NCBI GenBank assembly: GCA_017509375.1
Contig: JAFWPT010000290.1
Coordinates: forward strand, 1 to 27,050
Origin: Bacteroidales bacterium
GTDB taxonomy: Bacteria; Bacteroidota; Bacteroidia; Bacteroidales; UBA932
Direction of reading: 5' to 3'
Length of the DNA: 27,050 nucleotides
Shown here: positions 4,222-27,050 of the stretch, one piece after another
How positions within the stretch are numbered: the first letter of the stretch is position 1
Layout of the letters: every line of letters starts with the position of its first letter
Position numbers and translations under genes: made by a program
Notes under the pieces: model-generated
What the model saw: the letters and a program-made list of their open reading frames with translations, nothing else
What the model was told of the DNA's origin: nothing
The model's database searches: none

Positions 4222-5239
4222 AAAACTCTTTTTTGCCGCCGCGTTGTTGCTTTCTGCATGCGGTCAGCAGGCTGCCCGGCAGGGCGCGGCGCAGCCGGCG
4301 GAAGCCCAGCAGGCGAGCGCCCCCATGGTTTCCGTAGTAACAGCCGCATACGAACACGTGCCCCAGACGGCCGTGTACTCCTCGAACGTGCAGGCCAACG
4401 TGGTCAACAACATAGCGCCCCAAAGCGGAGGCCGCATCCAGAAGCTGAACGTGGAGGTTGGAGATTTCGTGGCAAAAGGCCAGGTGCTGGCCGAAATGGA
4501 CCGTGTGCAGCTTGACCAGGCCGGCCTGAAGCTCCGCAACGACGAGACTGAACTCGAACGCGTGCGCGCCCTGCTTGCCCAGGGAGGCATTTCCCAGGCC
4601 GATTTCGACCAGCTGGAACTCGCCTGCAACGTGAGCCGCAGCAACTATCGCAACATAGAGGAAAACACCATACTCCGCAGCCCCGTGAGCGGTGTAGTGA
4701 CCGCCCGCAACTACGACCGCGGCGATATGTTCGCCATGGCGCAGCCCATTTATACCGTGCAGCAGATCACTCCGGTGAAGATTCTGGTGGCTATTTCCGA
4801 AACGGACTACACCCGCGTCAAGAAGGGAGACAAGGTAAGCATCACGGCCGATGCGCTCCCCGGCAGCGCTTTCAGCGGAACCGTCAACCGCCTGTATCCT
4901 ACCATGGATGCCGCCACCCATACCTTCAACGTGGAGGTGCTGGTGCCCAATTCCCGCAGGGAACTGCGCCCCGGCATGTATGCCCGCGTGACCGTCAATT
5001 TCGGCGACAGCTACAGCATCACAGTGCCCGATACCGCAATCTCCAAGATGCAGGGGGCCGGTACCAGGACTGTGTTCGTGGTGGATGAAGAAGGCTGCGC
5101 CCAGTTGAAAGTGGTCACTCTCGGCCGCCATTTTGACGGAAAATATGAAATTACCTCCGGCCTGAGCGAAGGCGACCGCGTAGTTGCAAAGGGAGGCTCA
5201 TCTCTCAAGTCCGGACAAAAAGTTGAAGTAGCACAATAA
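4214..5239 (+). CDS. RND efflux periplasmic adaptor (membrane fusion protein), lipoprotein
   Basis: Adaptor linking the inner membrane RND pump to the TolC-like channel. The N-terminus is a lipoprotein signal with lipobox LLLSAC (Cys16), so the protein should be tethered to a membrane. The lipoyl/biotinyl half-motifs are visible: APQSGGRIQKLNVEVGDFV with GQVLAEMD around residues 70-100, and NTILRSPVSGVVTARNYDRGD after a short alpha-hairpin. The beta-barrel (VLVAISETDYTRVKKGDKV; LRPGMYARVTV) and membrane-proximal domain follow. Length of 341 aa is typical. The start overlaps the tolC-like stop by 8 bp and the stop overlaps the pump start (TAATG), implying translational coupling. Confidence 0.95.
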   Translation: MNKKLFFAAALLLSACGQQAARQGAAQPAEAQQASAPMVSVVTAAYEHVPQTAVYSSNVQANVVNNIAPQSGGRIQKLNVEVGDFVAKGQVLAEMDRVQLDQAGLKLRNDETELERVRALLAQGGISQADFDQLELACNVSRSNYRNIEENTILRSPVSGVVTARNYDRGDMFAMAQPIYTVQQITPVKILVAISETDYTRVKKGDKVSITADALPGSAFSGTVNRLYPTMDAATHTFNVEVLVPNSRRELRPGMYARVTVNFGDSYSITVPDTAISKMQGAGTRTVFVVDEEGCAQLKVVTLGRHFDGKYEITSGLSEGDRVVAKGGSSLKSGQKVEVAQ

Positions 5240-8200
5240 TGAGCATATACAGGACAGCGGTCAAGAACCCCGTAACCACCGCGCTCATATTCATTGCCTT
5301 CATGATATTCGGCATCTTCTCGCTGAGCCGGACCAGTATCGCCCAGTTCCCCGAGTTCGATTCCAATACCATTATGGTGATGTCGTCTTATCCGGGCGCC
5401 AATGCCGCAGATATCGAGACCAACCTTACAAAGGTGCTGGAGAATGCCCTCAACGGCGTTGAGAACCTCAAGGAGCTTAATTCGCGTTCCAAGGAAAACA
5501 TTTCCCTCCTCACCCTTACCTTTGAATACGGGACGGACATAGAAGAAGCCACCAACAACGTCCGCGACAAGCTGGACATGGTGAACTCCAATCTTCCCGA
5601 CGGAGCTTCTATGCCCGTCATCTTCAAGTTCAGTGCGGATGATATGCCCATCATGCTGCTCACAGCTACCGCCGACGAGAGTCTTCAGGGCCTGGACAAG
5701 ATTCTGGATGACCGTCTGGCTACCCCTCTGGCACGCGTGCCGGGAGTAGGCACCGTGAGCGTGGCGGGCGCACCCACCCGTGAGATACAGATTTACTGCG
5801 ATCCCACCAAGCTTCAAGCTTACAACCTGAGTATCAATGCTATATCCGGCATTATCGCGTCTGAGAACAAGAACCTTCCCTCCGGCAACATAGATATAGG
5901 TTCCAGCACTTACACCCTCCGTGTGCAGAAAGAATTCACGGACCCTTCGCAGTTGCTGGACGTAGTGGTCGGCAATGTCGGAGGCCGTATCATCTACCTC
6001 AGGGACGTGGCCACGGTGCGCGACGGCTCAGAAGAAAGGGAGCAGGAATCTTACACCGACGGCATTCGTTCCGCCCGTATCATCATTCAGAAACAGGCCG
6101 GAGCAAACACCGTCAATGTAATCCGCGGGGTTAAGAAGCAGCTGGCCAAGATTCAGCCCACATTGCCTGCCGACGTAAACGTCACCATCCTGGTGGACGG
6201 CTCTACGGAGATTATCAACACCATCAAGACTTTGCGCGACACCATCATCATCACTTTCCTGGTGGTGATGCTCATAGTGTTCATATTCCTGGGCAACTTC
6301 AAGTCCACCTTTATCATCGTGCTGTCCATCCCTATGGCGCTGCTGGCGTCGCTGGTGTATCTGTTCGCCACTGGCAACACGCTGAATATCATTTCCATGT
6401 CGGCTCTTGCCATAGCCATAGGAATGGTGGTGGACGATGCCATTGTGGTGCTGGAGAACGTGTCCACGCACTTGTCCCGCGGTGAGCGGCCAAAGGAGGC
6501 GGCGGTGCACGGGACCTCGGAAGTGGGCATCTCGGTTATCGCTTCCACCCTTACCATGCTCTGCGTGTTCCTGCCGCTTACTATGATAAACGGTATGGCC
6601 GGCATCATGTTCCGCCAGCTCGGCTGGATAGTGAGCATCATTATGATAGTGTCCACTACGGCGGCTCTTACATTGGTGCCTATGCTCTGTTCCCGCTGGC
6701 TTAAGCAGAACGAAAGCCATGGCAAGGTGTATAAGGCCATTTTCGACCCTATCAATCGCTTCATCGATTGGATTTCAAGAGGATACGGTCATGTGATCCG
6801 CTGGGCTACCGGCCATCGCGCCCTGGTTATCCTCGGCTTTGCGGCAGTTTTCGCAGCAGTCGTGCTGCTTCTTGCCCCCGGTGTGAAGACCGAATTCTTC
6901 CCCCACAGCGATACGGACCGCGTATCGGTGAATATAGAGTTGCCCATGGGTACCGCCCAGGAGATAACGCGCGATTTTGCATTCCGCCTGTACGACGAGG
7001 TGAAGGAAGCCGTTCCGGAGGCGCAGCGCATCAACTTTACCTTCGGCCAGGCCGACACGGACAACACCTTCGCCAACATGCAGAACAACGGCACGCACGT
7101 CATATCCATGAACGTGCGCATCGGTACCAGCAGCACGCGTGAGCGCAGCAGTGCCGAGATAGCCGACGTGATCCGCGGCATCCTGAGGAAGTATCCCGAC
7201 ATCCACCGCGCCATGGTTACCGAAGGCGGCGGCGGAATGGGCGGCGCCTCGACGGTCAAGGTGGAGGTGTACGGCTACAGCTTCGAGACCACTGACCGCA
7301 TAGCCAGGGAGCTGCAGACGAAGATGCTTCAGGATCCCGCCTATGCTCAGGTTACCCTGAGCCGCGATGAATATACCCCCGAGTACCAGATGGACTTCGA
7401 CCGCACCAAGCTGGCCCTTAACGGGCTCAATTCCACCACGGCGGGTGCGGCATTCAGCTCTGCTATGAGCGGCACCATCGCTTCCTTCTACCGTGAGGAT
7501 GGGGAGGAGTATTACATCCGCGTGCGCTATGCCCCCGAATTCCGTACCAGCATCGAGGATATGGAGAATATCATCGTGGTAAACGGGCAGGGACGGCCGG
7601 TGCGGATGAAGGAACTCGGAACCATAGTGGAGACGCTGGTGCCTCCTACCATTGAGCGCAAAGACCGTGAGAGACTCATTTCCGTGACCGGAATCGTGGG
7701 CCGCGGCGTCGCCCTGTCGGATGCGGTAGCGGCCGCACAGCGTGCCATCGATGCCACCGACGTGCCCTCTGAGCTCGCAATCCAGATTGCCGGCGACTAC
7801 GAGGAACAGCAGGATATGTTCGCCGACCTGTTCGTGCTTATCGTGCTGATTATCCTTCTGGTATATATGGTCATGGCCTCCCAGTTCGAGTCGTTCATGA
7901 GTCCTTTCGTGATTATGTTCAGCGTACCGTTCGCCGTGGTGGGCGTGCTGCTCGGCTTCGCCGTCACCGGAACCAGCCTGGGCATGATGTCGCTGGTGGG
8001 TATCATAATCCTGCTCGGTATCGTGGTGAAGAACGGTATCGTGCTCATAGATTACACCATATTGCTCCGGGAGAGGGGCGTGAGCGTGAGGGATGCGTCC
8101 GTAGAAGCCGCCCGCAGCCGTCTGCGCCCTATTTTGATGACCACCTTGACCACGGTGCTGGGTATGCTTCCTATGGCAATAGGTACCGGCGAGGGCTCCG

Positions 8201-14444: not shown

Positions 14445-15854
14445 CTACTGCCACTTGGTGTGGAAGAACTGTCCGCGGGGACTGTCGGTGCGCTCATATT
14501 GATGGGCCCCGAAGTAGTCGCGCTGAGCCTGCAGCAGATTTACGCCCGAGCGGGGGCAACGGTAACCGTCGTAATATGCCAGGGCCGATGATAGGGCGGG
14601 AATAGGGATGCCGCTTTCTGCAGCGGCGCATACCACGGTCCGAAGGCTGCTTTGCACCTGCGACAGTTTTTCTGAGAAGTAACTGTCCGTCATCAAGTTA
14701 TCCAGAGCTGGCCTGCGCCCGAAAGCCTCCTGAATCCTGCCCAGGAATACGCTGCGTATAATGCAGCCGCCACGCCAAAGGCCGGCTATCTCACCGTAGT
14801 CAAGCGGCCAGCCATAGTTGTCCGCAGCCTCCCGCATAAGGGAGAAGCCCTGGGCGTAGGAGATTATTTTGGCGGCCAGCAGAGCCTGCTGAAGATGTTC
14901 TGTAAGTCGTTGATTTACAGCTACACCGGCTGCCGGGCCAGCCAGCACTTTGGAAGCAGCGAGTCTTTCCTCTTGCCTGGCCGACAGGCAGCGGGCGAAT
15001 ACCGCTTCGCCTATCAAAGGCAGCGGGACGCCTGCGTCTAGTGCCGCATGTACTGTCCATTTGCCGGTACCCTTTTGCCCGGCGGTGTCCAGAATGGTAT
15101 CCAGCACAAAGGCTCCGCTGGAATCCTTTTTGCCCAGGATATCTGCGGTAATGCCTATCAGGTAGCTGTCCAAGTCGCCCCGGTTCCACTCGGTAAACAC
15201 CTGCTGCATTTCGGGATTGCTCATCCCGAGGGTATCCCGCATAATTTGGTAGCACTCGCAGATGAGCTGTATGTCGCCATACTCGATGCCATTGTGGACC
15301 ATCTTGACAAAGTGGCCGGCACCGCCGGGGCCTATCCACCCGCAGCAGGGACTGCCGTCGGGGGCTTTTGCGGCAATGGCCTGAAATACAGGGCACACGA
15401 TAGGCCAGGCCGCAGGGGAGCCGCCGGGCATCATCGAAGGGCCTTTCAGCGCCCCTTCTTCGCCTCCGGATACTCCGCAGCCGACATAGAGCAAGCCGGC
15501 CTTTTCCACAGTCTCCATTCGCCTCCGGCTGTCTTCGAAGTGGGAATTACCGCCGTCGATGATGACGTCTCCGGGTTCCAGTACAGGCAGCAGTCCGTCA
15601 ATCACTTCATCTACCGCTGCTCCTGCGGTAACCATCATAAACACCTTCCTTGGCCGCTCGAGGGACGCCGCAAGCGAAGCGTAGGAATCTGCCGCAATAA
15701 AGTTCCGCCCCTGCTCTTTTGCCATAAACTCCACAGTGACAGGGGGTACGTAGTTGTACACGCTTACCTGGAAGCCCTTGCCCTCCATGTTCCTGGCTAA
15801 CGAGGCTCCCATTACTCCCAGGCCCACGAGGCCTATATCGGACTTTTCTTTCAT
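14445..15854 (-). CDS. gnd: 6-phosphogluconate dehydrogenase (decarboxylating)
   Basis: Oxidises and decarboxylates 6-phosphogluconate to ribulose 5-phosphate. The ATG at 15854 gives 469 aa, the family length, and overlaps the upstream kinase stop (ATGA). Visible motifs: dinucleotide-binding GLVGLGVMGASLARNM (8-23), IIDGGNSHFEDS, VGCGVSGGEEGALKGPSMMPGG, the catalytic GAGHFVKMVHNGIEYGDIQ, and the C-terminal QAQRDYFGAHQYER. Odd point: at the end of beta-2 the sequence is YNYVPP (residues 33-38), where NADP-dependent enzymes such as E. coli Gnd have NRS/NRT. The arginine that contacts the NADP 2'-phosphate is therefore missing, so NAD may be preferred. Last gene of the LacI-linked operon. Confidence 0.95.
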   Translation of the reverse strand: MKEKSDIGLVGLGVMGASLARNMEGKGFQVSVYNYVPPVTVEFMAKEQGRNFIAADSYASLAASLERPRKVFMMVTAGAAVDEVIDGLLPVLEPGDVIIDGGNSHFEDSRRRMETVEKAGLLYVGCGVSGGEEGALKGPSMMPGGSPAAWPIVCPVFQAIAAKAPDGSPCCGWIGPGGAGHFVKMVHNGIEYGDIQLICECYQIMRDTLGMSNPEMQQVFTEWNRGDLDSYLIGITADILGKKDSSGAFVLDTILDTAGQKGTGKWTVHAALDAGVPLPLIGEAVFARCLSARQEERLAASKVLAGPAAGVAVNQRLTEHLQQALLAAKIISYAQGFSLMREAADNYGWPLDYGEIAGLWRGGCIIRSVFLGRIQEAFGRRPALDNLMTDSYFSEKLSQVQSSLRTVVCAAAESGIPIPALSSALAYYDGYRCPRSGVNLLQAQRDYFGAHQYERTDSPRGQFFHTKWQ

Positions 15855-16909
15855 CGTAATACTCTTGCATTGCCCTCCCAGATGCTCCATATCTGGGCCT
15901 CGTCGGCCGGACGGGCGTAATCGCTTAAAAATGTAACCGCAAGGACTCCGGAAGCCCATGCAAACTGTGCGCATTTCTCGGGGGACCACGATTTCAGCAG
16001 TCCGTAGAGCAATCCGCCGGTGAATCCATCCCCGCCGCCAATACGGTCAAGCACCTTTATCTCCCGCGGAGCTATGTTAACGTACTCGCTGCCGGAGGAC
16101 ACAATGGCGCCCCAGAGGTGCGTGCCGGCGTCTTTCACTTCCCGCAGCGTGGTGGCCACAGTTCGGGCGCGCGGGAAACGTTCCCGCACCTTGCCAAGCA
16201 TCTCCTTGAAAGCCAGCTCTTTGGCTGCGAGCCCGCGGCCTCCGGCATCTGGTCCTTCCAGTCCGAGCGCCAGCTGGAAGTCTTCTTCGTTGCCCACCAA
16301 TATGTCCGCAGCCGATGCAATGCGGCAGAAAGTGTCTCTCAGCCTTTCCTCCTGCCCTGCCCAGAAGGAAGCACGGTAGTTTATGTCGAAGCTCACTTTG
16401 GCGGAATGTCTTCCGGCAGCATCCACCAGATCCAGGCAAAATTGCGGGGCAATGGCGGCGATGAGGCCGCTCAGGTGCATAATCTGCACGCCTTCGGTGC
16501 CGAAAATGCGTTCCAGATCGAAGTCGGCGGCATCAAGGCAGCGGCCCGCCTCTCCGGCGCGGTCGTTCCATACCCGCGGGCCGCGGGAGCCGAATCCGCT
16601 GTCGGCCAGATTGATCTGGTGCCTGAGGCCCCACGGTCCGCCCTGGGGCAGGGACGGTCCTTCCACGTCCATACCGCGGGCTTGGAGATCGCTGCGGATG
16701 TAATCGGAAAAAGGATGGCCTTGCACGAAGGCGCTGAGCACCTTTACAGGCATACCGAGGAAGGATGCAATGCTGGCGGCATTGGTTTCAGCGCTGGTAG
16801 CTTGAAGAGCCAGGGGGCCTCCGCACTGGAGCGGCTGTCCGTTGAAGGGGCATAGCCTGAGGCCCATGCTGGTGGGGACCAGGAGGGCGTATTTTGCTGA
16901 AGCAGGCAT
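15851..16909 (-). CDS. PfkB-family sugar-acid kinase (2-dehydro-3-deoxygluconokinase type)
   Basis: A 352-residue ribokinase-fold kinase. The ATG at 16909 (MPASAKYALLVPTSMGLRL) is chosen; upstream in-frame codons belong to the transporter gene. The catalytic signature near the C-terminus is DRIGGGDGFTGGL with D294 as general base, the KdgK-type variant of the PfkB motif (DTTGAGDAF in many sugar kinases). VSFDINYRASFW and ILVGNEEDF are also typical of KdgK-like enzymes. It probably phosphorylates a keto- or sugar acid. With gnd overlapping immediately downstream, a product convertible to 6-phosphogluconate is plausible. Classical KDG aldolase is not encoded here. Two bases separate it from the transporter gene. 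Confidence 0.85.
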   Translation of the reverse strand: MPASAKYALLVPTSMGLRLCPFNGQPLQCGGPLALQATSAETNAASIASFLGMPVKVLSAFVQGHPFSDYIRSDLQARGMDVEGPSLPQGGPWGLRHQINLADSGFGSRGPRVWNDRAGEAGRCLDAADFDLERIFGTEGVQIMHLSGLIAAIAPQFCLDLVDAAGRHSAKVSFDINYRASFWAGQEERLRDTFCRIASAADILVGNEEDFQLALGLEGPDAGGRGLAAKELAFKEMLGKVRERFPRARTVATTLREVKDAGTHLWGAIVSSGSEYVNIAPREIKVLDRIGGGDGFTGGLLYGLLKSWSPEKCAQFAWASGVLAVTFLSDYARPADEAQIWSIWEGNARVLR

Positions 16910-16911
16910 TG

Positions 16912-18168
16912 TTAAAGGAGTTTTCCCAGCGCTACCACGCCGGTGTAAGATACTATGCAGGCGAAAACGAATGCAAGGCACATCAGGGCCGTGAGCGCAA
17001 TGGGACGTTTATCTCCGGATACGCTGCGTTTGTTGAGCATGAATATCATCAGCAGGATGACCAGAGGCAATACGAACACCAGGGTAACCTGCGACGCAAT
17101 CTGGGTTATTACAGGGCTCTTGCCGAGGATGGGGATTGTGAGTCCGACCAGTGCGGCGATGCCGGTCAGAATCTTGAACAGGGGCGTGCCGGTCTGCATC
17201 TTCCCGTCTCGGTAGTCGCTGACGAGTTCGGGAGCCAGCATCATTATGGGAAAGAGGGAGGAGAGCCCGGCGCTTAGCAGGCCCACCACGAACAGAGCCA
17301 CCGCGAAGCGGCCTGCTATGGGTTCCAGCACGTAGATCATGTCCAGTACCTTTTCCACCTGGATGCCGCGTGAATGCAGTACGCCGGCGGCACATATCAT
17401 TATGGATGCCGAAATGATGAAAGTAAGAGCAGCGCTCACGGCGGCATCGCGCCTCTGGGCGTGCATGTCATTCCGGCCCCAGCCCTTGCTCTTGATAATC
17501 ATAGGACGTATAACGAAAGTGGGGGATGACATTGTGGTGCCCACGAACGCCGCCACGAAGAGCCTGGCTTCGAAGCCTTCCGGCAGACTGGGTACGAAGC
17601 CCCTGGCTATTGCTCCGGGAGAAGGCAGCTGGATGAACATAGACAATATGAACGCCAGGCCCATGAGCGTCACCAGAACTGACAGAATCTTCTCGAATGT
17701 ACTGTAGTTGCCGCGGTTGAGGACAGCCCAGACCGTGCCTGCGATGAGCACTGCGCAGCCCAGTACAATCCAGTATGCCGCTCCCTCGGAAAGACTTGGG
17801 ATGCACAGGTAAAGCACTTCCGAAACGGCATTTGAGGTGATGTTGAGAATGCTGGAGAGGCTTATCCACTGGCTGACCACGAGCCCTGAGATGAGTATCA
17901 CGGCCCATATCCTGCCTCCCTTCAGCCGCGTCTTGATGCCGTGAATGGCAGTGTCGCCGGTGAGGATGCCGAAACGTCCGTAGGCTTCTGTCATCACCCA
18001 AGTGAAGAAGGCGCTGATTGCCAGCACCCATAGCAGCCGGGTGCCGTACACGCTTCCGGACTTGACCATTGAGGTCACACTACCCGTACCTATGGTAAAG
18101 CCCAGACAAAACAGCCCGGGCCCTACCATTGCAATCCAGCGCAATATGTTTTTAAAGAATTTATTCAT
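16912..18168 (-). CDS. NRAMP-fold transporter lacking the canonical metal-binding motifs
   Basis: Polytopic inner membrane protein of 418 aa with about 11 TM segments and the NRAMP-family layout (WIAMVGPGLFCLGF, LLWVLAISAFFTWVMTEAYGRF, TGDTAIHGI). In true Mn/Fe NRAMP transporters TM1 carries DPGN and TM6 carries MPH. Here the TM1 position reads GTGS (residues 27-30) and TM6 reads MSS (213-215), so the coordinating Asp, Asn and Met-x-His set is absent. The protein lies inside a sugar-acid operon (SDR, kinase, gnd), so an organic acid or sugar-acid substrate is a reasonable inference. The start overlaps the SDR stop (TGATG), and the kinase starts two bases after its stop. Confidence 0.85.
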   Translation of the reverse strand: MNKFFKNILRWIAMVGPGLFCLGFTIGTGSVTSMVKSGSVYGTRLLWVLAISAFFTWVMTEAYGRFGILTGDTAIHGIKTRLKGGRIWAVILISGLVVSQWISLSSILNITSNAVSEVLYLCIPSLSEGAAYWIVLGCAVLIAGTVWAVLNRGNYSTFEKILSVLVTLMGLAFILSMFIQLPSPGAIARGFVPSLPEGFEARLFVAAFVGTTMSSPTFVIRPMIIKSKGWGRNDMHAQRRDAAVSAALTFIISASIMICAAGVLHSRGIQVEKVLDMIYVLEPIAGRFAVALFVVGLLSAGLSSLFPIMMLAPELVSDYRDGKMQTGTPLFKILTGIAALVGLTIPILGKSPVITQIASQVTLVFVLPLVILLMIFMLNKRSVSGDKRPIALTALMCLAFVFACIVSYTGVVALGKLL

Positions 18169-18923
18169 CAGGAGAACAGGCACCCTCCGTTTATATCAAT
18201 TCCCGTGCCTGTAACATATTCCGATTCCCCGCTCGCCAGGAAACATACGAGCCCGGCAACCTCGGCTGCGTCTCCCTCCCTGCGGAGGGGCGCGCTGCGG
18301 TGCAGGGCCTCCCGGTTTGCGGGTGCGGTGAAGGTGTCGTGGAAGTAAGTGTCTATCATTCCGGGACAAACGGCGTTTACGCGTATGCCCTGCGGGCCGA
18401 GCTCCTTGGCCATAGCCCTGGTGTGGCAGAGCATCGCCGCCTTGCCGCAGGCATAGATGGACGAGCCGGGGCCGCCCCCGTCACGCGCTGCCTGGGAGGA
18501 TATGTTCACGATTGCCCCGCCCTTGCCCATATACTTCAGGACTTCGCGCGTGCAGAGCCAGCAGCTCTTGAAATTCAGGTCCAGGACCTTGTTGTACCAG
18601 GCCTCGTCCTGTTCTTCGATGGATTTGCGGCCAACTATGCCGCCGGCGTTGTTGACGAGTATGTCGATGCTGCCTCCGAATGTCCGGGCGGCAGCGGCGA
18701 ACAGTTCAACGACTTCGCTTTCCTTTGTCACGTCCGCTTTGCAGATTATGGCTTCTCCGCCGGCCTTCCGTATAGCTTCCAGGGTTTCTTCCGCCTTGGA
18801 CTGGTCGTGGCAGTAATTGATGCAAACCTTGACTCCTTCGCTTGCCAGCTTCAGGGAAACTGCGCGGCCGATGTCCCGCGAACCGCCGGTCACGACAGCC
18901 ACTTTTCCTTTAAGATTCTTCAT
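18168..18923 (-). CDS. SDR-family NAD(P)-dependent oxidoreductase
   Basis: A 251-residue classical short-chain dehydrogenase. The ATG at 18923 is preferred; upstream codons cross the promoter and operator. Motifs: cofactor-binding TGGSRDIGRAVSLKLA (a TGxxxxIG variant with Asp in place of the middle Gly), ILVNNAGG, catalytic Ser in NISSQAA and Tyr/Lys in SIYACGKAA, and VCPGMIDT after the active site. It probably interconverts a hydroxy and a keto group on a sugar acid, judging from the downstream kinase and gnd. It is the first gene of the operon, and its promoter carries a LacI-type operator. Exact substrate unknown. Confidence 0.9.
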   Translation of the reverse strand: MKNLKGKVAVVTGGSRDIGRAVSLKLASEGVKVCINYCHDQSKAEETLEAIRKAGGEAIICKADVTKESEVVELFAAAARTFGGSIDILVNNAGGIVGRKSIEEQDEAWYNKVLDLNFKSCWLCTREVLKYMGKGGAIVNISSQAARDGGGPGSSIYACGKAAMLCHTRAMAKELGPQGIRVNAVCPGMIDTYFHDTFTAPANREALHRSAPLRREGDAAEVAGLVCFLASGESEYVTGTGIDINGGCLFS

Positions 18924-18932
18924 TTCCTTTGC

Positions 18933-18951
18933 TTGTGTGTCCGCACACAAA
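18933..18951. promoter_or_regulatory. LacI-type operator O1 at the SDR promoter
   Basis: TTGTGTG-TCCG-CACACAAA: nearly perfect inverted half-sites around a 4-bp centre, sharing TGTGTG-N4-CACACAAA with the site at 20137-20154. It overlaps the -7 box and start region of the minus-strand SDR promoter, an arrangement typical of repression. Confidence 0.75.
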
Positions 18952-18977
18952 GGTAGATAAAAAATGTTTAAATGCAA
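18948..18977 (-). promoter_or_regulatory. Promoter of the SDR-transporter-kinase-gnd operon (TTG-N19-TACCTTTG)
   Basis: On the minus strand TTG (18977-18975), 19 bases, then TACCTTTG (18955-18948): a full match to the Bacteroidetes -33/-7 architecture. The last bases of the -7 box are also the first half-site of operator O1. The leader to the ATG at 18923 is about 20 nt. Confidence 0.75.
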
Positions 18978-18996
18978 ACAGCTGCACTTTTTTTTG

Positions 18997-19005
18997 TATA
19001 TTTGC
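18997..19005 (+). promoter_or_regulatory. -7 promoter box (TATATTTGC) of the LacI-family gene
   Basis: TATATTTGC fits TAnnTTTG and its TTTG ends 8 bases from the ATG at 19013, predicting a leaderless or near-leaderless mRNA. No clear -33 TTG is visible. Operator O1 is about 50 bp upstream, so direct autorepression is less certain. Confidence 0.6.
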
Positions 19006-19012
19006 AGTCTCC

Positions 19013-20083
19013 ATGGCGCAGCAACTGACAATTAAGCAAATAGCACAAGAGGCAGGTGTGTCCGTAGGGACTGTAGACCGTGTGCTCCACAACCGAGGTA
19101 AAGTTTCCCCTAAAGCTCTGGAAGCTGTACAGGCGGTGTTGAATACCCAGTCTTATAAGTACAATCTCCATACTTCCGCCGTTGCATTCAAGAAAACGCG
19201 GAAATCTTTGCACGTAGTCATTTCAATCCCCTCTTCGGAGAAGGGGGAGTACTGGGATTTGATGAAAAATGGGCTGGACCGGGCATTCCGTGAGTACAGC
19301 GATATTTCAATCCAGTACGAATACTTCTTCTTCGATCAGTTCAACTCTCTCTCCTGCCGGGAAGTTTACCGTTCCGTTGCTGGAATGAACTGCTCTGCCG
19401 TCATTCTGGCTACCACTTTCATCGAGGAGACCAGGGAATTGTGTTCCCGGCTTGACGAAAGCGGCATCCCTTATGTTTTCGTGGACGGTTTTGTGTCCGG
19501 CACCCATCCTGTAGGTGCCTTTATGGTGGACCAGATCAGCTGCGGCCGTCTGCTGGCGCGCCTGATGGACGGCTTCACTCCTGCGGATTCCGAAATCGCG
19601 GTTCTGTTGCCCAAACGTATAGGTACCCAGATTTCCAACAACTCTGCCCTGCGTTTACAGGCGTTCAAGTCTTTCTTTGCAGAACACAACTCTCCGCGGG
19701 TGCTCAAGGAGGGCTTCTTTTCTATGGAAGGGAACTCTTCCATTTCCTCGGAAATCAATGATTTCTTGAGCGGAAACCCCAATGTGGGAGGAATCGCCGT
19801 GGTAATCTCTGCCGGGTATTATGTGGCCGATGCACTTGCCGCCTCCGGGCGCAGTGACCTGGTGGTAGGCGGCTTTGACATCACTGATGGCAACGCCCGC
19901 TGCGTGGAGGCCGGGAGCATGGACTTCCTTATCAACCAGCACCCGGGCAAACAAGGCCTCTATGCCGTGGAGTCTATGTTGCATTACCTTCTGTACGGCG
20001 CACCGGACAAGAACAGGAAAGAGCGCCTGCCCATCGATATTGTGCTACGGGAGAACCTCGACTCCTGGCGGGGCAGTGAATAA
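19013..20083 (+). CDS. LacI-family transcriptional regulator
   Basis: A 356-residue regulator. The N-terminal helix-turn-helix reads LTIKQIAQEAGVSVGTVDRV and continues LHNRGKVSPKALEAVQAVL (hinge helix region to about residue 60). The C-terminal periplasmic-binding-protein-like ligand domain includes VISIPSSEKGEYW, ILATTFIEE and VVGGFDITDGNARCVEAGSMDFLINQHPGKQG. The subtype, with VGTVDRVLHNRG and a sugar-binding fold, is common among Bacteroidota sugar regulators. The start at 19013 (MAQQLTIKQ) fits the HTH position. The gene sits between two units whose promoters carry the same TGTGTG-N4-CACACAAA site, so it probably represses both until a sugar acid or derivative binds. The ligand is not identifiable from sequence. 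Confidence 0.93.
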   Translation: MAQQLTIKQIAQEAGVSVGTVDRVLHNRGKVSPKALEAVQAVLNTQSYKYNLHTSAVAFKKTRKSLHVVISIPSSEKGEYWDLMKNGLDRAFREYSDISIQYEYFFFDQFNSLSCREVYRSVAGMNCSAVILATTFIEETRELCSRLDESGIPYVFVDGFVSGTHPVGAFMVDQISCGRLLARLMDGFTPADSEIAVLLPKRIGTQISNNSALRLQAFKSFFAEHNSPRVLKEGFFSMEGNSSISSEINDFLSGNPNVGGIAVVISAGYYVADALAASGRSDLVVGGFDITDGNARCVEAGSMDFLINQHPGKQGLYAVESMLHYLLYGAPDKNRKERLPIDIVLRENLDSWRGSE

Positions 20084-20099
20084 AAATAGCATTTAAGTA

Positions 20100-20130
20100 T
20101 TGTTTTTAAAAATATTATTGGTACCTTTGC
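20100..20130 (+). promoter_or_regulatory. Promoter of the peptide/GLUG lipoprotein unit (TTG-N19-TACCTTTG)
   Basis: TTG (20100-20102), 19 bases, then TACCTTTGC (20122-20130). The -7 octamer and the spacing are identical to those of the SDR operon promoter. It lies 17 bases after the LacI-family stop codon and just upstream of operator O2. Confidence 0.75.
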
Positions 20131-20136
20131 CCCAAA

Positions 20137-20154
20137 TGTGTGCGCACACACAAA
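20137..20154. promoter_or_regulatory. LacI-type operator O2
   Basis: TGTGTG-CGCA-CACACAAA, matching O1 at 18934-18951 in both arms and spacer length. A 14-bp perfect palindrome (TGTGTGCGCACACA) is embedded at 20137-20150. The site starts about 7 bases after the -7 box and so covers the likely transcription start of the downstream unit. Confidence 0.75.
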
Positions 20155-20203: not shown

Positions 20204-20344
20204 ATGAAAAAAAGAAAATACTTCTCTCCACTATGTGCTTCCTCTTTTGCGGAGGAAGCAGACTTGCTCTGCATAAGTATGGACAGCAGCGACCGTGAAC
20301 TCGATTCTCTCGAGGATGCGTCAGGCGACTGGATTTTGATTTAA
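20204..20344 (+). CDS. Small peptide (46 aa) preceding the first GLUG lipoprotein
   Basis: ATG-to-TAA frame starting MKKRKYFSPL, with a central LLCISMDSS and an acidic tail (RELDSLEDASGDW) ending in hydrophobic residues. No signal peptide is evident: the start is basic, but no long hydrophobic run follows. It aligns with the peptide at 23216-23365 as K(R)K-x-Y...LC[IV]-x-S...D-x-L...G-x-x-W, so the two look homologous. Only 14 bp separate it from the lipoprotein gene, and it is the first gene after the LacI-controlled promoter. I do not recognise a characterised function. Short Bacteroidota peptides of this style (basic start, central Cys, acidic end) are often annotated as hypothetical. Confidence 0.65.
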   Translation: MKKRKYFSPLCASSFAEEADLLCISMDSSDRELDSLEDASGDWILI

Positions 20345-20358
20345 AACAGAGGTAAGCC

Positions 20359-23205
20359 ATGAAAAAGTATTTTTGCATAATTCTCAGCGTTTTTGCTTTT
20401 GCTTCCTGCGCAAAGGAAATCGAAATATCTCTGATTGAATCCGATGCTGTTCATTCAGGGCAGCCGTCGCTTGTTCCCTTGACATTCCAGGCCAAGGCCG
20501 AACTTATGGGCACCAAGTCGGATATAAGTTTCCCAAGCATACTTTGGGAGGCCGATGATGAACTGGCAGTATTCGACGGCTCCGCATTCAATAAGTTTTC
20601 CGTTGTAAACCTCTCTGACGATGGCCGTACCGCCACTTTCTCCGGTTCTGCTGCGGATGCCGCAAGCTATTATGCCATAGCACCTTACTCGGCAGCCACC
20701 AATATCAGTACGGAGAACACCAGGCTGAGCGTCAAGATTCCGTCCACACAGACTATCATTGGCAGCCATTGCGTAGATACCGGTTCCTTGGTGTCAACTG
20801 CAGTCGATGACGGCAACGGCGGGCTCGTGTTTACCAATCAGTTCTCGCTCATGAAGGTGAAGCTGGACCGGAATGATGTTGTGTCCGTTATGCTCCGTGG
20901 CAACGACAGTGAAAACGTCGGAGGCACCAACCATTTCTACTATGGCGGCGAAGGCGCCCCGCGTATGGATTTTTCCAATGCTGCAGGCAAGTCCGTGAGA
21001 ATCGTGTATAAAGCTTCTGCGGATAGTGAGGCTTCTGCCTTCCCGGCCGGAGAATACTATATCGTGCTGTGGCCTACCACTTTCAGTGAAGGCTACACTG
21101 TTGTGATTACTACGGAAGAAGGGGCTAAGGGGGCAAAGAAGAAGACCTTCCAGCAGGTGCTTGTGCGCAACAGCGGACAGGATGTTTCCACTGTGGACAA
21201 TGTAAATTACTGTCCTGCGGAGATTGTCACTGCGGCTCAGCTCAAAACCTGGCGCAACCTTGCTGAGATAGGCGTTTATGGCGAAGGTGACGAGGTAAGG
21301 CTCGGGGCAGACATCGACCTTGGCGGTTATGACTGGAAGCCTGTTACCAATTACCTTGGCATCTTTGACGGACAGGGACATAAGATATACAACTTCAAGG
21401 TCGGATACGCATCCGACAACCGTATGGGTTTCCTCAGGACTCTCGGATCATCTTCCGGAGAGTTTGCGGTGCTGAAGAATGTGATATTCGGCTCTTCGGA
21501 CGGTTCGTCATGGGACGGGTCAAGCCAGATAGAGCTGCTTAACAGCAGTGCGGATTCCTGGTCTTATGCCGGATTGGTGGGGTACGCCCACAAGAACAGC
21601 GTCATAGAAAATGTGGTTAACTTCGTTCCGGTAACTGCGTCCGCAGCGGTAACTACAAGACACGCCGTGGGAGGTATTTCGGGTGCGGCAGGCGACTACG
21701 CAACAATCAAGGACTGTGTGAATTACGCTACCATAACTAGCAAAGCCGCCTGTGAAACCACGGAGGATTCCGCCGTGGGAGGCATTCTTGGGGCGACAGG
21801 AAGCAAAGATGTAAGCGTGATTTCCTGCACCAACGAAGGCAGCATTGACAATACCTGCGTCGGTGTGTCCACCATCGGCGGCGTAGTCGGCAAATCCACC
21901 GGGACCGGACTGCTTGTAGATGGATGCGTGAACGCTGGAAGCGTAAGCAATTCGGCGGCAAGTATGGGAAGCACCAAAGGAAACTGGGATATTTATGTGG
22001 CCGGGGTGCTCGGTTTCATGGGCAATACGACCGTTGTCAACGAGTGTACCAATACCGGCAAGCTATATCAGGCAGCGGCCACGAATTCGGCTTATGATGT
22101 GTGCTTCGGCGGCATCGTAGGCGGTTCCACCAAGAATGGCTGCATCATCAAAGGTTGTACTAATAGTGCGGAATTCTGTTACGAAATGACGGAGTTCTCC
22201 TCCTGGCTGGCTGCCGGAGGCATACTTGGTTACACCCGAGGAAGCGTGACCATTACCAAGTCCGACAATGGCAGCCCCACGGTAAATACCGGGCAGTATT
22301 TCCAGAGGCGCAACCATACAAAGAACATGTATGTGGGCGGAATCGCCGGCTTGATTGAAAAGCAGACAGGCTCCATCATTGAATACTGCACCAACGAAGG
22401 CCGCATAGTGGGCTTTGGCGACCAGAGTACTGCGAAAGTGGAGTTTTATGGCGGCGGTATTTGCGGCGGCGCTTCCTCAGGTGTTCTCAGCAACTGTGTC
22501 AACAACGGCTTCCTCATCGCCAGGAGCGGCAATCATATCGCATATTTCGGCGGAATCGCAGGCTCCAAGAACAAGTATCCTACAAGTATCCTGGGATGCA
22601 TCAACAACGGTACCGTCAGCGGTTACAATTCCAGCGGAAGTACGCGTCTGGGAGGTATCCTCGCCGTGTTCCAGGCAGATAAGACTGAAGTTCGCAACTG
22701 CCTGAGCAACTGTCTGATAACAACAGGGAACGTATATACCAACTCAAGTGGCAACACAGCTGGAGAGCCCATTAATTTCCAGTCCAAAGACTACTATAAG
22801 GGAGGTCTCTTCGGAGAAGTCCTTGCCCCCGGCGCAGATGTTACGGACAACGTAACCGGCTGCATCGTGAATTGTACCCTCAGTAACCAGAGCCCATCCA
22901 AGGAAGGATGGACCGGTATAGTTGCCGGACAGACTAAGAGTACCTCGAGTACTTCGTACAAACTGGCTTTCGGTACGGCCTCCGACCCAATTTTGATTGT
23001 CAATACATCCAAAATCGAGTATGGCTCCAACTCTAATCCCGCAACCATTACTCCCGGCGATGTAATCAATACTACAGCCAATGCATATAAGTGGCTTATG
23101 GGAACTGAGAGTAAGCTGTACAACGCCTCCACCGGCAGCAGCAATACAGACAAAGTTGACTTCAATTTCACAATTGTGTCACCAACCCAGGCAGGAATAG
23201 AATAA
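20359..23205 (+). CDS. Fimbrillin-like/GLUG-repeat surface lipoprotein 1
   Basis: A 948-residue predicted lipoprotein. The signal peptide ends in the lipobox FASC (Cys17), followed by AKEIEIS, an acidic stretch that could favour surface export. Residues ~40-290 resemble the fimbrillin (Mfa-like) fold: TKSDISFPSILWEADDELAV near 51-70, TFSGSAADAASYYAIAPYSA, and a VPAGEYY-like FPAGEYYIVLWPT. From about residue 315 (LGADIDLGGY, then LGIFDGQGHKIYNFKV) come about a dozen GLUG-type repeats built on GG[ILV]xG followed by a Cys-containing strand (for example AVGGILGATGS, NCVNNG), predicting a long right-handed beta-helix. It ends AGIE. An adhesin or glycan/peptide-binding role is likely but unproven. 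Collinear paralogue at 23387-26254. Confidence 0.85.
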   Translation: MKKYFCIILSVFAFASCAKEIEISLIESDAVHSGQPSLVPLTFQAKAELMGTKSDISFPSILWEADDELAVFDGSAFNKFSVVNLSDDGRTATFSGSAADAASYYAIAPYSAATNISTENTRLSVKIPSTQTIIGSHCVDTGSLVSTAVDDGNGGLVFTNQFSLMKVKLDRNDVVSVMLRGNDSENVGGTNHFYYGGEGAPRMDFSNAAGKSVRIVYKASADSEASAFPAGEYYIVLWPTTFSEGYTVVITTEEGAKGAKKKTFQQVLVRNSGQDVSTVDNVNYCPAEIVTAAQLKTWRNLAEIGVYGEGDEVRLGADIDLGGYDWKPVTNYLGIFDGQGHKIYNFKVGYASDNRMGFLRTLGSSSGEFAVLKNVIFGSSDGSSWDGSSQIELLNSSADSWSYAGLVGYAHKNSVIENVVNFVPVTASAAVTTRHAVGGISGAAGDYATIKDCVNYATITSKAACETTEDSAVGGILGATGSKDVSVISCTNEGSIDNTCVGVSTIGGVVGKSTGTGLLVDGCVNAGSVSNSAASMGSTKGNWDIYVAGVLGFMGNTTVVNECTNTGKLYQAAATNSAYDVCFGGIVGGSTKNGCIIKGCTNSAEFCYEMTEFSSWLAAGGILGYTRGSVTITKSDNGSPTVNTGQYFQRRNHTKNMYVGGIAGLIEKQTGSIIEYCTNEGRIVGFGDQSTAKVEFYGGGICGGASSGVLSNCVNNGFLIARSGNHIAYFGGIAGSKNKYPTSILGCINNGTVSGYNSSGSTRLGGILAVFQADKTEVRNCLSNCLITTGNVYTNSSGNTAGEPINFQSKDYYKGGLFGEVLAPGADVTDNVTGCIVNCTLSNQSPSKEGWTGIVAGQTKSTSSTSYKLAFGTASDPILIVNTSKIEYGSNSNPATITPGDVINTTANAYKWLMGTESKLYNASTGSSNTDKVDFNFTIVSPTQAGIE

Positions 23206-23215
23206 ACGAACAGAT

Positions 23216-23365
23216 ATGAAAAGAAAGAATTATGTAGATTATCTTACTCCGGAATGTAAGATTATTATGCTGGCGCAGCGCATTCAACTGTGCGTTGCCA
23301 GTGAGCAAAACTCACGTAGTTTTGATGCTTTGTCATCCGGCCCAGAATGGGATAGTGAAGATTAA
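23216..23365 (+). CDS. Small peptide (49 aa) preceding the second GLUG lipoprotein
   Basis: Starts MKRKNYVDYLTPECK, has a central IQLCVASEQ and an acidic end (SSGPEWDSED). It matches the 46-aa peptide at 20204-20344 in length, basic N-terminus, central LC[IV]-x-S and G-x-x-W near the end. It sits 10 bp after lipoprotein 1 and 21 bp before lipoprotein 2, repeating the peptide-then-lipoprotein order. No promoter or terminator is seen on either side, so it should be co-transcribed. Function unknown; the conservation of order argues that it is a real gene. Confidence 0.65.
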   Translation: MKRKNYVDYLTPECKIIMLAQRIQLCVASEQNSRSFDALSSGPEWDSED

Positions 23366-23386: not shown

Positions 23387-26254
23387 ATGAAAAAATATCT
23401 TCATTATTTTATATTGAGTCTGGCATCTCTTGCCGTATTGTCATGCACCCAGAAGATTACCCCGGAAGAGAATTCCTCTCCCGAAGAAGGAACAGTTGTA
23501 GAGTCCAACAAGATACCAATGGTTTTCTCGGCTTTTACCGAGCAGACTAAGGCGGACATCAGCGGTACTTCAATTCTGTGGGAAGACGGAGATGAAATCG
23601 CCATCTTCGACGGTACCGACCTTAATAAGTTCACCACATCCAGTGTTTCAGCCACCGGAACCGGAGCCGAGTTTTCCGGCTCTGCGGCGAGTGCGGGAAC
23701 CTACTATGCGGCAGCTCCTTTTTCTGCAGCAAGCAATGTCAACGCTACGAACTCCTGCTTCAGCCTGACCATTTCAAGGAACCAGACTATCAAGGGTTCC
23801 CATTGCGTAGATCCCAATGCTTTGGTCTCGACGGCAGTGGCTACAGATACGGACAACCTGACATTTACCAACCAATTCGCCCTTGTTAAAGTAAGCATTA
23901 CCAGGTCTGACGTGGCAACTGTGCTCCTCAAAGGCAATTCAAGTGAAAAAATCAGCGGAAGCAACCATTTCTTCTATGGTGGCGAAGGTGCTCCCCGTAT
24001 GGATTTGACCAACGCCGGCGGCGATCACGTATTGCTGAAATATCAAGACGGAGAGGGTGCGGAGGCTGTTTTCCCTGCCGGAGATTATTATATAGCAATC
24101 TGGCCTACGGAATTCAGCGCAGGATTCAAACTCATACTCACCGCTTCCGATGGCAGCAAGACTTTGCTGAGTTCTTCATCCACAAGTAATCTCGTACGTA
24201 ACGGAGGCCTTGACTTGGGAGCCGTTGACAATGTCGGCACCTGGTGTCCTCCCGTCATCATGAACGCAGCCCAGCTGAAAATGTGGCGCAGGGTGGCTTC
24301 TGCTGGCGGGTATGAGGAAGGTGATGAGGTCAAGCTCGGCGCCGACATCAATCTCGGCGGCTATGCCTGGACGCCTGTACCCGAGTACCTTGGCATCTTC
24401 GACGGCCAGAATCATAAGATTTACAACTTTACCATATCTTCCGATGCGGCCAATGTAGGATTCATCGGAACATTGGGTTCATCGAATGAGGAAGAGGCGG
24501 TCCTTAAGGATGTCGTGTTCGGTTCATCGAACGGCACAAGTGCTGACGGAAGCAGTTCCATCACTGTTACCGGCGCCAGAAGCGGCTGGACTTACGGCGG
24601 CATAGTCGGTTATGCGCATAAGAAGACGACCATCAGCGGCGTTACCAACTTCATGCCCGTTACTGTTGCATCTTCTGTGACAGGCAAGCATGCGGCGGGC
24701 GGCATCTCTGGCTCCTGCAACGGTGGCTCCGGCAACGGAATCACAATTACCGCTTGCCACAACTATGGCGCAATTACCGACAATTCCGCAAGTGAGACCA
24801 CTGATAATTCTGCAATTGGCGGAATCCTGGGTGCTACAGACGGGTCCTATGCGCTTGTGTCATCGTGCGTCAATCACGGTGAAGTCCACAATTACTGTAT
24901 CGGCGTTTCCCGCATTGGCGGTATAGTAGGAAAGGCCTGGGATGCGAACGCTACGATTGATAGTTGCGACAATGAGGGTAATATCATCAACGAAGCCGCT
25001 TCAGTTACGGATAAAACAAGTTCTTGGGATAACGCAGTAGGAGTTGGTGGCGTGCTGGGTGCTTTTACGGCCAAGAATGGCGGTCTTCTGGTCAACAAGT
25101 GTTCCAATTCAGGACAGATATTCTTCAAGGCTGCGACCAACGGCTCATACCGTCAGGCATACGGAGGAGTTGTCGGACTGGTTACTTACGCCGGCACCAT
25201 TAAGGGTTGCTACAACTCGGGAAAGCTTTATGACGATGCGGCTTGCGAGTCACACTTAGCCATGGGCGGTATACTTGGTGTGTGCAACACGAAGAATCTC
25301 GTCGTAACGAAGGCGGACGACGACACCTATAACGTGAACGACGGAGAGATATTCCATTACAAGGCCCACACCGACTGCGATACCTGGATCGGCGGAATCG
25401 TAGGACTCCAATATGCAGCCACGACTCCGGTGGAGTACAGTATCAACAACGGACGCCTTGTCAGCGATCCGAGCGGGCAGGGTACGGCGAACTACTATTC
25501 CGGGGGAATTTGCGGCTCCTGCAAGGGCGTTATCCGGCATTGCACCAACAACGGATACATCTTTACCTGGGCCGGAAGTCTCACTGTCTGGATTGGCGGT
25601 ATCTCCGGCGGAAAAGATGCCCCGCAGGAAATCAGCAATTGTACGAACAATGGCTGGATCAGCGCTTACAAAACTTCGGGCTCTTCGGTCAGCGCAGGCA
25701 TTCTTCCCATCCTGTCTCCCAACACGACTTCAGTAAGCTACTGTACCAATACGGGTATGGTAACTACCGGAAACTTCTATTCCGGCGGTACAGGCAATAC
25801 TCCCAATTCCACTCTGAGTACTTTCGAGTCCAAGGATTATTACATGGGTGGTCTGTTCGGCTATGTGAACGCACCTACTGCTGACGTTACCGTAGCGGAA
25901 GGTTGTATAGTAGCCTGCACGTTCGGTCAGAGAACAGGTTCCGAAAGCAAAGATAATTATAAGGGGATTATTTGCGGGCAGTGTAAGAGCAAGGGCTCTA
26001 CAAGCTATAAAGTTACTTTCGGCTCATCGGGCGCTCCCGTCCAGGTTGTGAACACTACCAAGTTCCAATATGGCACCAATGCAGATCCGGCCGTCATTAC
26101 GCAGGGGGATATAATTACCTCCACGGCACTTGCAAACAAGTGGCTTATGGGAAGTTCCAGCTCTCTGTACAGCGCTTCTGATGGAAGCAGCAATACCGCA
26201 AAGGTTGATTTCAACTATACCCTTGTAACCTCTGCCCAGGCAGGAATCGAGTAG
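23387..26254 (+). CDS. Fimbrillin-like/GLUG-repeat surface lipoprotein 2
   Basis: A 955-residue paralogue of the preceding lipoprotein, alignable end to end. The lipobox is AVLSC (Cys20), followed by TQKITPEENSSPEEG, rich in acidic residues. The fimbrillin-like part shows TKADISGTSILWEDGDEIAI, GAEFSGSAASAGTYYAAAPF and FPAGDYYIAIWPT. The repeat domain begins near residue 317 (LGADINLGGYAWTPV, LGIFDGQNHKIYNF) and carries about a dozen GG[ILV]xG repeats with Cys-containing strands, ending WLMGSSSSLYSASDG and AGIE. Divergence is greatest in the repeat loops, and the framing segments are kept. Last gene of the unit; a strong terminator follows 40 bp later. Confidence 0.85.
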   Translation: MKKYLHYFILSLASLAVLSCTQKITPEENSSPEEGTVVESNKIPMVFSAFTEQTKADISGTSILWEDGDEIAIFDGTDLNKFTTSSVSATGTGAEFSGSAASAGTYYAAAPFSAASNVNATNSCFSLTISRNQTIKGSHCVDPNALVSTAVATDTDNLTFTNQFALVKVSITRSDVATVLLKGNSSEKISGSNHFFYGGEGAPRMDLTNAGGDHVLLKYQDGEGAEAVFPAGDYYIAIWPTEFSAGFKLILTASDGSKTLLSSSSTSNLVRNGGLDLGAVDNVGTWCPPVIMNAAQLKMWRRVASAGGYEEGDEVKLGADINLGGYAWTPVPEYLGIFDGQNHKIYNFTISSDAANVGFIGTLGSSNEEEAVLKDVVFGSSNGTSADGSSSITVTGARSGWTYGGIVGYAHKKTTISGVTNFMPVTVASSVTGKHAAGGISGSCNGGSGNGITITACHNYGAITDNSASETTDNSAIGGILGATDGSYALVSSCVNHGEVHNYCIGVSRIGGIVGKAWDANATIDSCDNEGNIINEAASVTDKTSSWDNAVGVGGVLGAFTAKNGGLLVNKCSNSGQIFFKAATNGSYRQAYGGVVGLVTYAGTIKGCYNSGKLYDDAACESHLAMGGILGVCNTKNLVVTKADDDTYNVNDGEIFHYKAHTDCDTWIGGIVGLQYAATTPVEYSINNGRLVSDPSGQGTANYYSGGICGSCKGVIRHCTNNGYIFTWAGSLTVWIGGISGGKDAPQEISNCTNNGWISAYKTSGSSVSAGILPILSPNTTSVSYCTNTGMVTTGNFYSGGTGNTPNSTLSTFESKDYYMGGLFGYVNAPTADVTVAEGCIVACTFGQRTGSESKDNYKGIICGQCKSKGSTSYKVTFGSSGAPVQVVNTTKFQYGTNADPAVITQGDIITSTALANKWLMGSSSSLYSASDGSSNTAKVDFNYTLVTSAQAGIE

Positions 26255-26392: not shown

Positions 26393-26473
26393 CAGGTCTG
26401 CCATCCTCCGGCAGGACCTGCTACGAAATCGCCCCAAATTGTGCCAGGTCTCACCACATTATAAGCAGACCTG
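26393..26473. repeat. Two inverted repeats sharing CAGGTCT arms
   Basis: CAGGTCTGCC (26393-26402) faces GGCAGGACCTG (26410-26420). CAGGTCT (26445-26451) faces AGACCTG (26467-26473) across the stop codon of the Rpn gene. The 11-base segment GTGCCAGGTCT occurs directly repeated at 26389 and 26441. These may be termination or mobile-element related structures; no T-run follows on either strand. Confidence 0.5.
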
Positions 26474-27050
26474 CTGCAGAGCAGCAATCTCCTCCAAAGA
26501 TAGACCGGTGTATTTAACGATGAGTGATGTATCGACACCATCAGCCAACATCGCCCGAGCATATTCCGCTTTCGCTTCCGCTCTCCCTTCCGCTCTCCCT
26601 TCCGCTTTCCCTTTCCAATAACGACTGTTGACAATATCGTCTATATCCCACTGTGTTGTCATATCATTTCTATAATCTTTACGTTCTTCAGAATTCAGTG
26701 CGCTCACTTCGCACGCCTCGAATATCTTCGCGAAGACCTCCTCCATCAGCGCCATAGGGCGCTCCGTCAGTGACGACATATGCGTGAGTGCCCACGAGAG
26801 CTTCTCGGCGAAGGAGTCTTCCGGATGGGGCTCATCGTAGCCGCGCTTGTAGTTCGTCATCTCCAGAAAGATGAAGTTCACCCGGTCCGTCATCAGCTCC
26901 CCGCTCTCCCGCTCACGGAGGTCGTATCGGTACACTATCCGCTCCGAGAACGGGTGGAACGAGAAGTTCAGGAAACTCACCACGTACACCGGCGGGTAGT
27001 CGAAATGCAGGTCGTGCGTCTCCGGCCTCAGCCCCAACTCCATCTCCGCC
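26459..27050 (-). CDS. Rpn-family / PD-(D/E)XK nuclease-type transposase protein, 5' end beyond window
   Basis: The frame is open to the right edge, so the ATG at 27043 is probably internal and the nuclease core (N-terminal ~130 residues) lies outside. What remains matches the C-terminal half of Rpn/PD-(D/E)XK family proteins: PPVYVVSFLNFSFHPFSER near the edge, VNFIFLEMTNYKRG, then WKGKAEGRAEGRAEAKAEYA followed by the small terminal helical domain (MLADGVDTSLIVKYTGLSLEEIAAL). These proteins are widespread in Bacteroidota and have been linked to RecA-independent recombination in E. coli. Complete copies are about 280-320 aa. Whether this copy is intact cannot be judged here. Confidence 0.85.
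   Translation of the reverse strand, partial: AEMELGLRPETHDLHFDYPPVYVVSFLNFSFHPFSERIVYRYDLRERESGELMTDRVNFIFLEMTNYKRGYDEPHPEDSFAEKLSWALTHMSSLTERPMALMEEVFAKIFEACEVSALNSEERKDYRNDMTTQWDIDDIVNSRYWKGKAEGRAEGRAEAKAEYARAMLADGVDTSLIVKYTGLSLEEIAALQQVCL
26567..26614 (-). repeat. 12-bp tandem repeat encoding the AEGR linker of the Rpn-family protein
   Basis: CGCTCTCCCTTC occurs twice exactly (26579-26590, 26591-26602), flanked by degenerate copies (CGCTTTCGCTTC, CGCTTTCCCTTT). On the minus strand it encodes a K/A/E/G/R tetrapeptide linker (KAEGRAEGRAEAKAE). Gain or loss of whole units keeps the frame and changes linker length. Confidence 0.7.

Follow-up and report, generated by a model that had tools for sequence, protein, structure and literature searches.

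A LacI-family regulator encoded in the window, the whole stretch of 27,050 nucleotides analysed here, probably controls both an SDR-Nramp-PfkB-Gnd operon (the SDR operon) and a unit of small peptides and lipoproteins through a shared palindrome, within a putatively sugar-acid-induced glycan regulon that would include SusC/SusD. The LacI protein would bind TGTGT(G/C)CG(G/C)ACACA at a position that covers the -7 box or lies slightly downstream of it, and the bound repressor would block transcription of the SDR operon and of the peptide/lipoprotein unit until released by a common inducer; this inducer would derive from the glycan taken up, and a sugar acid is the most likely candidate. Both units would then come on together, along with the SusC/SusD operon and the glycan-cleaving enzymes that have the same site in relatives. 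The lipoproteins, with a fimbrillin-like stalk and GLUG repeats, would have their role on the cell surface, probably in the capture of the glycan, and the SDR operon would reduce and phosphorylate the sugar acid to 6-phosphogluconate, which Gnd would convert to ribulose 5-phosphate. For uncultured Bacteroidales, the analysis defines a candidate operator of a LacI-family regulator together with a list of its putative targets; two named relatives are MAGs with RUG labels, which we take to indicate a rumen origin.

Operators and promoters beside the regulator gene

The regulator (19013..20083, + strand; 356 aa) combines an N-terminal LacI HTH (PF00356, 43.2 bits) with a periplasmic-binding-protein-like effector domain, Peripla_BP_4 (PF13407, 93.9 bits), both over their cut-offs, which places it in the LacI family and suggests a sugar-sensing repressor. 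As a sequence-only reading of the window had claimed, the gene lies between two promoters of the same -33/-7 architecture, that of the SDR operon (18948..18977, - strand) and that of the peptide/lipoprotein unit (20100..20129, + strand). Both are pattern matches to TTG-N19-TACCTTTG, which occurs twice in the window against 0.02 expected; the looser TTG-N19-TANNTTTG occurs four times against 0.12 expected. The Bacteroidota -33/-7 consensus consists of TTG, a spacer of about 19 nt and TANNTTTG, and the window promoters conform to it.

Both promoters carry the same candidate operator, a LacI-type even palindrome of 14 nt with a central CG. Its core, TGTGTSCGSACACA, has exact copies at 18936-18949 and 20137-20150, and up to two mismatches gave three matches in the window (0.21 expected), a number reached by none of 100 shuffles. 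The longer TGTGTGNNNNCACACAAA is likewise exact at both promoters (18934-18951 and 20137-20154) and is less well defined than the core; with up to three mismatches it gave 7 matches against 1.59 expected, all of them on these two stretches. Operator 1, TGTGTCCGCACACA (18936..18949, no strand assigned), overlaps the SDR operon's -7 box, the last two bases of the box being the first two of the operator. Operator 2, TGTGTGCGCACACA (20137..20150, no strand assigned), lies downstream of the -7 box of the peptide/lipoprotein unit, with 15 nt from box start to operator start. The sequence-only reading had described a TGTGTG-N4 site: the matching sites are there at both promoters, but the spacer is no free N4, the whole being a palindrome with a central CG. 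Even palindromes with a central CG are the commonest LacI-family sites, at 1173 of 1303 regulators in PMC4052901; the window sites have this form and lie near the promoters of the putative targets, with a conserved core here of 14 nt. A word search of main texts gave no literature match for the operator word TGTGTGCGCACACA.

The 20137 palindrome can self-pair as RNA, and the palindromes might accordingly be read as a hairpin that terminates or attenuates transcription behind the LacI gene, or as chance occurrences, instead of operators. We consider this highly improbable: folding of the leader does not exceed that of shuffled sequences (z 0.50), on which ground an RNA hairpin or terminator at 20137 was ruled out, no T-run follows the palindrome, and the same 14-mer recurs at a fixed distance from the -7 boxes of different operons.

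The spacing of putative operator and -7 box recurs in relatives. At all eight SDR promoters, those of the window and of the first seven genomes, the distance from box start to operator start is exactly 6 nt, and TTG lies 19 or 20 nt upstream of the box. The distance is 15-16 nt at the first peptide promoter in the window and in G002, G155 and G013, and 11-18 nt at six SusC-type promoters from these first seven genomes. An operator that covers the -7 box or follows it closely suggests that the bound protein would repress by blocking polymerase. Several sites are without the upstream TTG/-7 pair, which weighs against the shared-control model: no -7 box is within reach of those that precede the second peptide in G002 and G155, and at the sites of LamG-type genes and the peptide sites of G084 and G091 the box lies downstream of the operator or TTG is missing at 17-21 nt. 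In G002 and G155 a third operator lies between lipoprotein 1 and peptide 2 (L002 14322-14335 and L060 14595-14608). The window is without this third operator, and there the gap between lipoprotein 1 and peptide 2 is only 10 nt.

The palindrome and its regulator across genomes

The palindrome was fixed from the window, L001 of genome G001 and L002 of genome G002 before other genomes were tested. The regulator was sought in overlapping draws of 200, 398 and 400 genomes around G002 and G155, and orthologues (61-76% identity) were found in 21 of them, with seven (including G001 and G002), nine and five new per draw. Exact copies of TGTGTSCGSACACA numbered 26 in the first seven of these genomes (7/7 positive), 20 in the next nine (7/9) and 12 in the last five (5/5). 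With G001 and G002 left out, exact sites occur in 17 of 19 orthologue genomes and in one of 60 without an orthologue, absence in the 60 being defined at the search cut-off (1e-60 for 20 genomes, 1e-120 for 40) and, for G221-G240, read from non-listing among the matches of the 398-genome search. The relatives are non-independent samples, G518, G537 and G565 being nearly the same at the locus; the Fisher tests, made on the first 16 orthologue genomes, assume independence and in two of three cases include the two genomes that fixed the motif.

Two orthologue genomes without an exact site also weigh against shared control: G514 has three sites with one mismatch each, and G480 keeps the regulator (64% identity) with no site even at one mismatch. 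One-mismatch matches carry little weight, since they are found in 5/20, 3/20 and 11/20 genomes without an orthologue. The regulator of G480 (L126, G480:C1, 7197-10302) has genes for a GDSL-type esterase and an MFS transporter as its neighbours, without operator or gnd. Near a start there are 48 sites, at a largest distance of 239, and eight of the 48 also lie within a reading frame of 150 aa or more; this nearness is weak evidence, since 45-aa ORFs are common by chance, and the target start is ambiguous at L113:6201 and L124:5893.

It is at this point that a paralogous LacI-family protein has to be weighed as the main reader of the palindrome, with the regulator between the two units controlling one of them or neither. 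The paralogues share the recognition helix VSxGTVDR, nearly the same as that of the regulator, so that another LacI protein could read the site; G223, whose LacI relative reaches only 28%, has eight exact copies (six of them at least 389 bp from any listed start), and two of ten paralogue-only genomes (42-48%) have one exact copy each. However, the palindrome goes with the orthologue in the comparison of 19 and 60 genomes, and 23 paralogue loci of about 4 kb each contained no exact site, which makes control by a paralogue unlikely. By association, the putative reader of the palindrome would be the regulator that lies between both units. As a separate observation, one pair of exact 14-mer copies in G223 precedes a SusC-like gene.

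Target genes in relatives and the place of SusC/SusD

The sites are kept beside orthologous genes in the three closest relatives, G002, G155 and G013, where they precede both the SDR operon and the peptide/lipoprotein unit. In G002 and G155 the order is SDR operon, LacI gene, site, peptide and lipoprotein; in G013 the LacI gene, site, peptide and lipoprotein follow one another, and a different contig ends in the SDR operon with its own site. The sequence-only reading had named a lack of conserved sites beside orthologous genes as a refutation, and the outcome is the opposite. That the LacI protein controls both units, as this reading had proposed, is well supported by these conserved sites, by gene order and by a palindrome that tracks the regulator.

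That reading had further held that fimbrillin/GLUG lipoproteins stand in place of SusCD, so that surface-display lipoproteins and peptides would be coupled to sugar-acid metabolism. Inspected by eye, the window shows only the operon, the regulator and the lipoprotein unit, with no SusC/SusD among its ORFs, and the lipoprotein unit lies downstream of the regulator in G002, G155 and G084. Yet SusC/SusD follow the same exact site in 14 of the 21 orthologue genomes (G001, G002, G013, G036, G084, G155, G498, G501, G508, G512, G518, G600, G622 and G635), and four of these, G002, G155, G013 and G084, have both a site-preceded SusC/SusD pair and the lipoprotein unit. We therefore think a replacement of SusCD improbable. 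SusC/SusD were identified by Pfam in G155 and G036 and by BLAST to these or by eye in the others; in G600 and G635 the displayed SusC frame begins before the site, so that the SusC start is not fixed. The pair comes directly after regulator and site in G635; in G498 no other plus-strand gene separates it from the regulator, but two small minus-strand genes lie between. In G002, G013, G084, G155 and G501, the first gene of the SusC/SusD operon encodes a lipoprotein of the Exo_endo_phos kind.

Further genes preceded by the site encode LamG-type proteins, an MGH1-like glycosidase and a type I phosphodiesterase; a Melibiase-like protein, divergent from a GDPD phosphodiesterase, also has a site. 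The MGH1-like protein has no solved-structure relative at E 0.001, and the target survey covers part of the sites in G537, G565 and G600. In L068 of G013 (4627-7743), an exact operator is followed by a peptide and then by a fimbrillin-type lipoprotein with a glucuronyl-esterase domain. Since in relatives carbohydrate-active enzymes (MGH1-like, Melibiase-like) stand beside the sites and the site also precedes a SusC/SusD pair, the targets look like one glycan-use regulon of the PUL type, not an odd coupling of metabolism and surface display, and the lipoproteins look like additional surface members of it. The window's own genome would be expected to have a SusCD part as well. In Bacteroides, ManR (GntR family) and AraR (NrtR family) are likewise single regulators that join catabolism in the cytoplasm to a SusC/SusD operon and to enzymes outside the cell (PMC3878776); they belong to other regulator families, and act on other sugars, than the LacI protein of the window.

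Sugar-acid metabolism, lipoproteins and peptides

The SDR operon lies on the - strand and comprises an SDR-family dehydrogenase/reductase (18168..18923; 251 aa), an Nramp-family membrane protein (16912..18168; 418 aa; PF01566, and NF037982 over its cut-off), a PfkB-family sugar or sugar-acid kinase (15851..16909; 352 aa; PF00294) and a decarboxylating 6-phosphogluconate dehydrogenase, Gnd (14445..15854; 469 aa; TIGR00873, 692.5 bits, cut-off 426.7). Among the matches listed, NF005559 'glucose 1-dehydrogenase' (223.3, cut-off 215) is the only subfamily model that the SDR protein passed. The kinase reached no NCBIfam cut-off, and its nearest solved structure is the 2-keto-3-deoxygluconate kinase 2afb (97 bits). 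In Proteobacteria, 2-ketogluconate or idonate/5-ketogluconate catabolism proceeds through a reductase and a kinase to 6-phosphogluconate. The window operon would resemble these routes in also joining a reductase and a kinase that lead to 6-phosphogluconate, and differs in a kinase without NCBIfam assignment and an Nramp-type membrane partner.

Across 16 orthologue genomes gnd is present in 15, on the contig of the SDR operon in 12 of these and on another contig in G501, G512 and G514. The sole genome without gnd, G480, is also without the site and without the SDR operon beside its regulator. No zwf was over its cut-off in any of the 16, the one weak match being in G498 (18.5 bits). With gnd in 15 of 16 genomes and zwf over cut-off in none, a sugar acid should be the source of 6-phosphogluconate; genes may be missing from draft genomes, but the absence of zwf carries weight since it is repeated across genomes. 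The SDR operon may thus feed a sugar acid into 6-phosphogluconate, which points to a route that does not start from glucose 6-phosphate; the 'glucose 1-dehydrogenase' match would also allow oxidation of a free sugar as the first step. For the Entner-Doudoroff exit, eda is over cut-off in three of the 16 genomes, with weaker matches in nine more. Rhamnose was rejected as the sugar: RhaA and an FGGY kinase adjoin the regulator in L001, and BLAST gave no RhaA, RhaB or RhaD match in 40 mapped stretches. In G001, the regulator is followed by a convergent class II aldolase gene, which lies next to RhaA.

The LacI-family sugar regulons of Bacteroides, namely KdgR (BT0487), UxaR, UxuR and UxmR, offer the closest comparison in regulator family, being LacI-family regulators of sugar-acid use; they serve uronate pathways, whereas the window operon is composed of SDR, Nramp, PfkB and Gnd genes (PMC3878776). 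The regulons of KdgR and UxmR, among others, contain a limited number of periplasmic or extracellular genes, and the words 'Fimbri' and 'lipoprotein' are absent from the main text of that source.

On the other side of the regulator, the + strand encodes small peptide 1 (20204..20344; 46 aa), lipoprotein 1 (20359..23205; 948 aa), small peptide 2 (23216..23365; 49 aa) and lipoprotein 2 (23387..26254; 955 aa). Lipoprotein 1 has a lipobox (by eye), a fimbrillin-like N-terminal part and beta-rich GLUG repeats (PF07581, 26.7 bits); lipoprotein 2 is 49% identical to it and has no Pfam match. Neither lipoprotein matches a fimbrillin Pfam family at E 0.001, the likeness being at the level of fold, and no fimbrial assembly or anchor genes were seen by eye in the window. 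A predicted model of lipoprotein 1 (pLDDT 82.7, pTM 0.80, 10 sequences) retrieved with Foldseek the fimbrillin-type adhesion proteins 3ufi, 4k4k and 5nf4 (E 3.6e-5 to 1.3e-4, over about 290-340 alignment columns of 948 residues), the other top matches being IgA1 proteases and 3n6z. The model would thus match FimA/Mfa-type fimbrillins and Bacteroides 'putative cell adhesion' proteins in part, since TM-scores by query length are 0.14-0.23 for the top ten.

A profile HMM built from the N-terminal 270 residues of ten GLUG lipoproteins was applied to 16 proteins. At E 7.5e-9 or better it recognised four Exo_endo_phos-type lipoproteins (a type confirmed with Pfam for G155 and G084), the lipoprotein with a glucuronyl-esterase domain and another two lipoproteins, so that the same N-terminal part appears to carry either GLUG repeats or enzymes. 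A third further lipoprotein and the MBL, SDR, BACON and SusD proteins were at E 0.4 or worse, and LamG, LacI and SusC proteins and a 322-aa Exo_endo_phos protein were not among the matches. These results would tie the fimbrillin/GLUG lipoprotein family to glycan use, with an N-terminal domain common to Exo_endo_phos-type and glucuronyl-esterase-type lipoproteins.

Small peptide 1 aligned with 16 others from these loci, small peptide 2 being assigned by the same alignment. In the 17 peptides M, Y and P are invariant and W is present in at least 90%; they are roughly 45-55 aa long, follow the pattern Y..P....LC.S...W and are the first gene after the operator in several genomes, with a peptide of this kind 21 nt after the site in G013. 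Small peptide 2 is without a separate operator in the window, even with two mismatches allowed. A peptide profile search found 48 proteins among 69 candidates, the few named ones being 'hypothetical protein'. The analysis as a whole would link these unnamed micropeptides to a defined regulon. It is conceivable, if rather doubtful, that they are distinct glycan-induced micropeptides acting with the adjacent fimbrillin-type lipoproteins in maturation, in export or as a tip subunit, and that the LacI repressor would switch on a peptide-dressed surface layer for glycan capture.

A gene for a transposase of the PD-(D/E)XK nuclease family (26459-27043) adjoins lipoprotein 2 and has a short E/R-rich repeat near its end. 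By eye, repeated protein frames occur at the start of the contig (1-684) and repeated words at 820-1173.
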